Positions 18,617 to 22,000 of a stretch of 64,000 nt of DNA are shown piece after piece. Below the pieces are notes generated by a model. That model saw only the letters and a program-made list of their open reading frames with translations. It made no database searches and was not told the DNA's origin. Position 1 is the stretch's first letter. Every line of letters starts with the position of its first letter. Source of the DNA: Tubiluchus corallicola. Lineage: Eukaryota; Priapulida; Priapulimorpha; Priapulimorphida; Tubiluchidae. The position numbers and the translations under genes are program-made. The DNA is taken from the NCBI GenBank assembly GCA_030141605.1, contig JAQGDQ010000076.1, positions 186,001 through 250,000 on the forward strand, written 5' to 3'.

Positions 18617-18923
18617 AACAATGTTATATTCTATAAGCATTATAATCATAATAACATAAATTATGTTTATTAAAATTACTTTTGAAATAATAAGGTCTAT
18701 AAATCGAACATTAATTTTGGAACTTTAATTGCAATAATTACGAATTTCTCATGCAGACGGCGCGCAAGGATAAAAATTTTGACATTGTTTGCACTTGCGC
18801 AAATCACCGCAAGAGATACAGTTAGGATAGCACAATGACGGTCGCGTGTGATGGTTTGTCAGTGGAATCCACTAGTTATTTATTTTGTTTGCTAGGAAAT
18901 TCTTCCCTAGGGAAATCAGTGTT

Positions 18924-19025
18924 ATGATGCTAAGACGTAAGAGCAAGTACTTATTTTTGATTGCCATAGTTTGGTTAACAGGAATTCTCTATTTTTACCA
19001 CAGGAATGGAAAGTCTACCGGGCAG
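18924..19025 (+). CDS. GALNT2: GALNT2 first coding exon, copy 1a
   Basis: 34 codons starting [20 protein letters not shown] and ending GKSTGQ at a GTATGT donor, phase 0. A short basic cytoplasmic tail (RRKSK) is followed by a hydrophobic signal anchor, as in type II Golgi enzymes. An in-frame TAG upstream and no ATG before 18924 fix the start; 18924 or 18927 could be used. The upstream DNA (about 18757-18850) is relatively G+C-rich and may hold the promoter. Confidence 0.85.
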
Positions 19026-22000
19026 GTATGTTCACTTTACCAAAGTACTTATAGTTCGATCATTACAGCAGTTCAGTAGTTTGAGCTGAGTTGAGCTTTA
19101 CTCAGTATTTTTCTTACAACTCCTGTGAACATATTTGTGTTTTCTAAGCTTGATCTACATTCGAGAACTCTGAAATTGAACGATGATATCTGTGCCGACC
19201 ATTTGTTTGTTGTTTATTTTTACTACTGTGTGAAATTTTGATAGGAAAATACTGTGCTAATAATCATAAATGCGGCAAAAAAGCTAATGGATGGGCGTTT
19301 GATTTTTGAACTACTGACTTGATCATTTAAAAAAAACGTTTATTCTGCTAATTTCCTAACATTCAAGTTACCCAAACTCGTGAGCTCGCTCTCGTTTAAT
19401 TTTTATGTAGATCTGCTGCGAAAGATTTGGGGTCTAAGATGTGTATTAAATTCTTTAATTACTTCAGAGATATTTAAAATCCAAACAGCCAAAAACGCAT
19501 ACACGATAATACTACTTAACAATGTTTTATCTTTATAATCATATTGACATAAAAAATGTTGAATAAAATAATTTTTTAAAGAATTGAGGTTTATAAAGAA
19601 AAATTTGAAACTCTAATGACAATAATTAGGAAATTTTTGGACAGACGGCACATGAGGATAAAGAGTTTGACATTGTCTGCAAGAGGTGCAGTAGGATAGC
19701 ACGTGGTGGTTTGTTGGTGGAATCCACTACTTATTTATTTTGTTTGCTAGGAATTCTTTCCTTAGCGCAATCTGTGTTATGATGCTAAGATGTAAGGGCA
19801 AGTACCTATTTTTGATTGCCATAATTTGGTTAATGGGAACCCTCTATTTTTACCACAGGAATGGAAAATCTACTCTCCAGGTATGTTCACTTTACCAGAG
19901 TACATAGTACTTCATTACAACAGCTCAGTCGTTCGAGCCGAGCTTACTTAAGTTTTACGTATTTATTAAGTGAAGCATTACTCGGTACTTTTCTTACAAC
20001 TTCCATAAACATATTTGTGTTTTCTAAGTTTGACCTGCACTCCAGTCAAAAATTCTGAAATTGAATGGTAAGATCTGGTCTTCTGTTTGTTGTTTATTTT
20101 TACTACTGCATGAAGTTTATGATAAGAAAATACTATACCGGTAGTCACAAATGCTGCATAAAGGCCAATGAGTAAGCCTTTTGAGTTTTTTAACTGCTGA
20201 TTTTGTTCAATTAGTTTCTTCTGCTATTTCCTCAACATTCAAGTTACCCAAACTGTCAGCTCTTATTTTATTTTTATGTAGATTTGCTGTGAAAAATTGG
20301 TGTCTCTAAGATGTGCATAAAATTCTTTAATTACTTCAGAGGTATTTAAAATCCAAAGAGCAAAAGAGCGATCACCTCATTAAAAATGCTTAACTTAATC
20401 TGTCAGTAATGTTGTGGTCGTCAATGTATTATTAAATAAACCTAAATGCAGATTTTTAAAATGGTAACAAACATGAGTTGGTGGCTTTGACAATACGTTT
20501 TTTGCTCTGCATATGTTTAGTTAAGCTAGGCAAATAGCCGGCTTTAGTAATTTGGTAATAAAATGTATAAGCGCAATGTGCAAAGTTGTTACTGTTATGT
20601 AGGCAGACAAAGATGTAATACTATTGAATTTGTGGTACTGTGCTTGTATAGTGTGTACGCGACCCAAACAAGAACAAACAACACTCAAATCATGGGTGTT
20701 TGATTCAATTTAGTTAGTTCATAATTCTTTGCAATGCTGCTATTGTTACATTAATTATAACAGTACAGTTGGTACATATATGGTCATTTAATAACGTTTT
20801 GAAGTACTTCTTTGATACTCATCTGCAGAATTCTAACTAGCCTTTAATCTTTCAGATATACTTAGAGTAGAGTAAATAAAGTTAAGGTACGCTTAAATTT
20901 CCTTTAGGTCTGTTTTAATTGTGTAAATTATTTTTAAAAACTTGCTTGTCCTGCGAACACTGCCACCTGGTTAAGTAAAACACATCAGCGTAATGAAGAT
21001 AAATAAGGCAAACTGTCTAAAGTTCATTGGGCCGATATTTCTTTATTTTGACTGGTAAGAACCGCAATGTTTTAGCAAACAGAATTGAAACACATTCAGT
21101 CCAAAGCATTTAAATAGTATTTGCTTAGTGGAAGGTGCAGTCTGACTTAGAGCCTCAAGTGTCTAAGACTCTTAGTTGAAGGAGCCGTGAATACGTCAAG
21201 GTTGAAAGATTTACTAGCTTTTGTAATATTTTCAGTAACCTTGTGAAATCTTTTGCGATCTAGCCGAGCACCTGTTCGTGATAAAGGGTGGATAATTAGA
21301 TAAATGTTTATTATATAATCTTTGTTTAGTGTTACAATAATTTAAGTCATCTCAGTGGCCAGTAATTAAATAATTCTTAATTCGATTTTCTTGTTAGTCC
21401 GTTCTGGACTAAGCGGTATTAGTAAAATACATCGTTTATCCATTCTAAACTAGTTGTCGTTATTGTCTTAAGACATCAATAGGCAAAATATAATTTGCTA
21501 AACGATTGATTACAGTAGGGTAAGCAATGCCACAGCTAGTCACCAAGCTTTTGATAGGAGATTATTCTTCATCATTGATATTTTAGTTAATAATGTTTCA
21601 TCTGTATTGTCAAAAGATATCTTTACGCAGTGCGTCTGGCATTGCTTACACAACGGCACTAAAATTTTTCTTGAACTAACACAAGCCAATATTCTTTTAA
21701 GGATAATCTTTAGCAATTAACTATATCCGGTCCTACTGCAACTATTAATTACTACTACTTCAACTAGGGCGTTTGAATACTTCTGCTGCTGGATTTTCAG
21801 TAAGAAAACTATAAGATAGATGAGAGTTTCCAGTACGAAAATCTACCAGCATCGCTGTTACCTTAGTTCCGATTGCATTTCAAAAAGGACGCATAGTGTC
21901 CTATGGTGCATACTACATGTAGCTAAAAACCTGTTATTAGCTTAAAGTTGATTACCTAACCTGATTAAATATTCATTACCTTTTTCGTGCCAGGCCATTA

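Follow-up and report, generated by a model that had tools for sequence, protein, structure and literature searches.

Why should the gene for a Golgi enzyme begin twice? In the priapulid Tubiluchus corallicola, alignment reveals that a block of about 0.9 kb carrying the first coding exon of GALNT2 occurs twice, head to tail, and the question that this locus raises is whether the second exon is, or once was, an alternative start of the gene or is a remnant of the duplication. The window referred to here is the whole stretch of DNA that was analysed (64,000 nucleotides; contig JAQGDQ010000076.1, positions 186,001 to 250,000); coordinates are positions within it, and the blocks, exons and splice sites described lie on the forward (+) strand.

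The assignment of the gene to GALNT2, proposed in the first-pass annotation, was borne out by its downstream exons. The common second coding exon (46713-46963, its end placed at a GTAAGT donor) matched six GALNT2 sequences of the PDB, with E values from 3e-11 (4d11_C) to 4.4e-10, in the stem and the start of the catalytic domain, GALNT2 being the best match among GalNAc-transferases and GALNT10 the next family member (E 0.14). In the genome this exon rendered one full match and a weak one on another contig (44% over 43 residues, E 3.4e-4), presumably another GalNAc-transferase. Further exons, found by tblastn with an assumed human sequence at 53629-63948 (approximate ends), encode the catalytic domain and the start of the lectin domain; they include those with LDSHCE and DVWGGEN, which we take to be the DxH and WGGEN motifs of a GT2 catalytic domain, and the exons of the C-terminal ricin-type lectin domain reach 65646, past the window end. 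Among Pfam families, PF00535 was above the cut-off on one exon and PF00652 below it on one (19.1 vs 29 bits), while a third GALNT2 exon matched no Pfam family; no Rfam family matched the window at the gathering threshold. The peptide of exon 1 matched an assumed human GALNT2 N terminus weakly in tblastn (36.7% over 30 residues, E 0.034), but it fits GALNT2 by its place, its phase and its design, that is, a basic tail followed by an anchor.

The two first coding exons, copy 1 at 18924-19025 and copy 2 at 19779-19880, each start with ATGATG, comprise 34 codons and end in CAG followed by the donor GTATGTTCAC, the GTATGT of which lies at 19026-19031 and 19881-19886, respectively. Since 102 bases make 34 x 3, and since the reading of the exon that follows the ttttag ending at 46712 starts at its first base, 46713, the donors are in phase 0; both copies, ending on a codon boundary, are thus in phase with the second coding exon. 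These are homologous exons in tandem, each with a start codon and an in-phase donor, and residue counts and hydropathy indicate a short basic tail and a signal anchor at the N terminus in both: 4 of the first 8 residues are basic in copy 1 and 3 in copy 2, and over residues 9-25 the hydropathy averages 2.02 in copy 1 and 1.89 in copy 2, nearly the same value. Our recount agrees with the first-pass annotation as to the intactness, in both copies, of start, 34-codon frame, basic tail, anchor and phase-0 GTATGT donor, as well as to the differences between the exons, which amount to 13 of 102 bases and change 9 codons, 6 of them by replacement and 3 silently.

The duplication had earlier been placed at 18617-20390; it is indeed there, but the alignment of the two blocks corrects its limits to 18618-19515 for copy 1 and 19519-20395 for copy 2, with TTAAC at or beside all three joints (left, middle and right) of the pair. 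Each block contains about 0.3 kb of upstream DNA, which had correctly been counted as part of the duplicated segment, the first coding exon and 0.5 kb of intron 1. The claim that only substitutions separate the copies holds in a core of 204 bases without gaps (18848-19051 vs 19703-19906, 87% identical) and fails elsewhere, where 15 indel events occur in 637 aligned bases. A search of the 343.5-Mb assembly with this core, in which only the best candidates were scored, returned two places, both of them these copies, and the E value of the second (1.9e-65) excludes chance similarity. Within the window, blastn with either block found, in addition to both copies, one 46-base match (E 0.001) at 44653-44698; tblastn with the exon peptides found no third exon copy in the window, the next best matches having E values of 0.12-0.16.

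The first coding exon of GALNT2 was tandemly duplicated long ago. In the flanks of the core 143 of 637 aligned bases differ (22%; K2P 0.27), a divergence that, together with the indels, indicates an old duplication, and hardly an allele or an assembly double. At such a distance, related species would be expected to carry it too. The exon is less diverged than these flanks (13/102 vs 143/637, Fisher P 0.026). Low divergence is not, however, special to the exon, because a 61-base stretch of intron (19433-19493 in copy 1, 20305-20365 in copy 2) is only 8% diverged (92% identical), lower than the exon and most of the block, so that partial gene conversion is possible. Both of these intron stretches hold a high-scoring, acceptor-like CTTCAG. 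There is no indel in a 194-base core, as against 15 in the flanks; the probability of this is 0.010 if both copies were free to change and 0.10 if only one was, and as a proof of selection the absence of indels is not decisive.

The reading that we favour, with somewhat less than even confidence, is that of an old tandem duplication after which copy 1 served as the main start and copy 2 was retained, during at least some of its history, as a putative alternative start exon spliced to the exon at 46713. A substantial possibility, though one well short of even, is that copy 2 is a non-functional relic that is spliced out with intron 1 and owes its intactness solely to the small target that 34 codons present. 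Neutral change was simulated with copy 1 held constant and half of the divergence falling on a freely changing copy 2, other shares being also tried. Under neutral decay of copy 2 alone an intact exon is not rare (P 0.118), and the 13 exon differences observed are close to the mean of 12.1 expected for a relic, both of which would suit this explanation. It fits less well once few replacements are required as well, since an intact exon with at most 6 of them has P 0.034. Assigning a larger share of the divergence to copy 2 lowers these values to 0.083 and 0.012, respectively, at a share of 0.6, and to 0.052 and 0.004 at a share of 0.7; if both copies are free, the joint outcome of intactness and no more than 6 replacements has a probability of 0.0001.

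The relic fits less well too when all the features are required jointly, namely start, frame, full GTATGT, basic tail (at least 3 basic residues and none acidic), anchor (free of charged residues and of N, Q, H and P, with a hydropathy no more than 0.3 below that of copy 2) and absence of indels: a neutral copy 2 keeps them with P 0.016, ranging over six settings from 0.004 to 0.039. The value is 0.039 for a branch share of 0.4 and 0.007 for one of 0.6, and 0.024, 0.009 and 0.004 when starting from copy 2. These simulated criteria were set after the sequence had been seen, most of the features having been named already in the first-pass annotation. The comparison of dN and dS suggested there is two-sided: dN is below dS (0.098 and 0.33 by NG86; 0.093 and 0.275 by LWL85), but a dN of 0.098 is also about what is expected for a free copy 2 and a fixed copy 1, that is, half of 0.27. 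In addition, three of the six replacements (R5, S7 and I21) can be polarised by the human sequence as we assume it to read, and in all three copy 1 keeps the human residue and copy 2 is the changed one, which counts in favour of a relic. Taken on the sequence, the support for past selection on copy 2, and for its having once been useful, is moderate, not strong.

The upstream DNA, in which the first-pass annotation had seen a possible promoter for each copy, bears on the same alternative. A CpG-containing stretch of copy 1 (18741-18857), a putative promoter, is among the most diverged parts of the block, with 22 differences in 84 aligned bases and two gaps, one of 18 and one of 15 bases, so that 33 bases are missing from copy 2. 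CpG is also scarcer in copy 2 (10 in 877 bases) than in copy 1 (25 in 898; Fisher P 0.016), although either copy may be the changed one, and of 300-base segments, three over the upstream DNA of copy 1 fell at the 83rd-89th percentile within the region, three over copy 2 at the 17th-39th. The missing bases and the fewer CpGs favour a relic. CpG decay as a proof that copy 2 is silent was considered and is only a hint, differences of CpG against TpG or CpA numbering 9 vs 4 (binomial P 0.27). These hints in the sequence speak against a well-kept promoter of copy 2. As a separate observation, an upstream ATG in copy 1 opens a 30-codon frame (18835-18927), the stop of which overlaps the GALNT2 start codon; translation might suffer from it in an mRNA with a start further upstream.

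It is also conceivable, but unlikely, that the exon is not the first of the mRNA, so that a putative upstream non-coding exon splices to either copy in a mutually exclusive manner, or that some transcripts contain copy 2 behind copy 1, where it would act as a poison exon and end translation. This is suggested by an acceptor-like stretch, TTATTTATTTTGTTTGCTAG followed by GAA, that is identical in both copies (18876-18895 and 19731-19750), its AG lying 28 bases before each ATG; a common site of this kind points weakly to an exon that is not the first. Only 3 of the 41 bases of 18858-18898, a segment picked after looking, differ between the copies (Fisher P 0.019 vs the flanks), whereas the next 25 bases differ at 7. 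In an acceptor model built from nine acceptors of the GALNT2 gene, however, the site is weak: it takes rank 122 among 3957 AGs, the probability of an equally good one in 100 bases picked at random is 0.16, and AGs that score above it occur at other places in the block or near it, two of these within coding parts. As the nine real acceptors rank from 46 to 674 when each is left out in turn, the site is no worse than real ones and not remarkable, and it was rejected as a proof of an internal exon. A splice from copy 1 into copy 2 at this site would give a peptide ending in STGQEFFP, with a stop after the four codons EFFP, as a poison exon would require; because such a joining ends translation, the two exons could work as alternatives and not together, unless translation restarted at copy 2. 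An assembly artefact, in which two alleles or a mis-joined repeat were set in tandem, has nothing found in its favour and is very improbable, given a divergence with indels far beyond the usual allelic difference, copies that are joined directly at short homology, and a core search that, among its best candidates, returned no other place.

Under the favoured reading, with copy 2 kept for a time as an alternative start, the duplication would have arisen by unequal exchange at the short TTAAC homology, and copy 1 would have remained the main start of the enzyme. Each transcript would contain one of the exons: transcription starting at or before copy 1 would lead to splicing over copy 2, while a start in the upstream DNA of copy 2, through the use of an alternative promoter, would bring copy 2 into use and, by splicing to 46713, yield the same enzyme with another N terminus.

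What this could mean for the enzyme depends on its cytoplasmic tail, which reads MMLRRKSK in copy 1 and MMLRCKGK in copy 2, with one basic residue fewer and a net charge, N terminus counted, of +4 instead of +5. The tail of GALNT2 is described as sufficient for GOLPH3-dependent Golgi retention, and robust binding of GOLPH3 as generally restricted to tails with a net charge of at least 4, N terminus included, in PMC8421267; by that account the charge of copy 2 is at about the reported limit. The change from +5 to +4 predicts a weaker GOLPH3/COPI recycling and hence a later or leakier Golgi position of the copy-2 form, on the assumption that GOLPH3 is present in this species. A different Golgi placement of the two forms is possible, but the tails differ little, so that no more than a graded change in retention should be expected; a small shift in retention is the best testable idea that the locus offers. 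A built-in switch of Golgi position, in which two putative promoters would choose between a +5 tail and a +4 tail at the edge of GOLPH3 binding and one catalytic domain would act in the secretory pathway in two places or at two times, appears doubtful.

Among the matches listed in the open-access literature searched, no description of an alternative first exon for GALNT2 was found, which agrees with the first-pass annotation, and those on alternative first exons of glycosyltransferases that change the Golgi tail were all on B4GALNT2 or the Sda antigen. B4GALNT2 belongs to another enzyme family than GALNT2. Human B4GALNT2, as described in PMC9959560, is likewise a Golgi GalNAc-transferase whose alternative first exons, 1S and 1L, alter the cytoplasmic tail, the long form being found also in post-Golgi vesicles, but its forms have the transmembrane and luminal domains in common and are distinguished by the length of the tail. 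The GALNT2 copies, in contrast, are two similar 34-codon exons, each with tail and anchor, that arose by tandem duplication. Tandemly duplicated 5' exons with a common 3' part are also found in chelicerate sDscam, where, according to PMC4835542, a promoter precedes each cassette and reporter activity was detected before both sDscam-beta6 cassettes; sDscam differs in having larger arrays, in being an immunoglobulin-domain receptor gene and in its demonstrated expression. Both alternative first exons that change the tail of a Golgi enzyme and tandem 5' cassettes with promoters are already known in kind, and a case in GALNT2 would possibly be new. Exon duplication has also affected Drosophila Gr39a, in which the duplicated exon codes for most of the receptor. 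Some of its duplicated large exons are intact and others pseudogenised, with weaker purifying selection on the duplicated ones, as reported in PMC2204066, which concerns, unlike here, a chemoreceptor gene. A GalNAc-transferase family gene with an alternative exon that alters local charge and function is Drosophila pgant9 (exons 8A and 8B), in which, according to PMC6115407, a lectin-domain loop and the choice of substrate are affected and not Golgi anchoring, both isoforms being in the Golgi.

If both exons are used, the locus would constitute a minimal natural experiment on the Golgi placement of a GalNAc-transferase, with two near-identical anchors that differ at six residues, one of them a tail arginine. 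If, on the other hand, copy 2 is a relic, the locus is a common case of exon duplication and warns that a frame of 34 codons may come through about 14% of neutral change by luck. In searches of the assembly for marker families, C1q gave 7 matches, and COX1, the arthropod cuticle domain PF00379 and mollusc haemocyanin PF14830 gave none; for the two Pfam families the controls were silent as well, so that these two negatives carry little weight. Other repeats were observed in the window: two identical tandem copies of 132 bases (100% matches) at 45452-45717, about 1 kb before the exon at 46713, which may have arisen by duplication very recently or through the assembly; two tandem copies of 110 bases with 93% matches at 2698-2923; and a long TTA/ATC trinucleotide repeat at 48551-48711, in the intron that follows the second coding exon.
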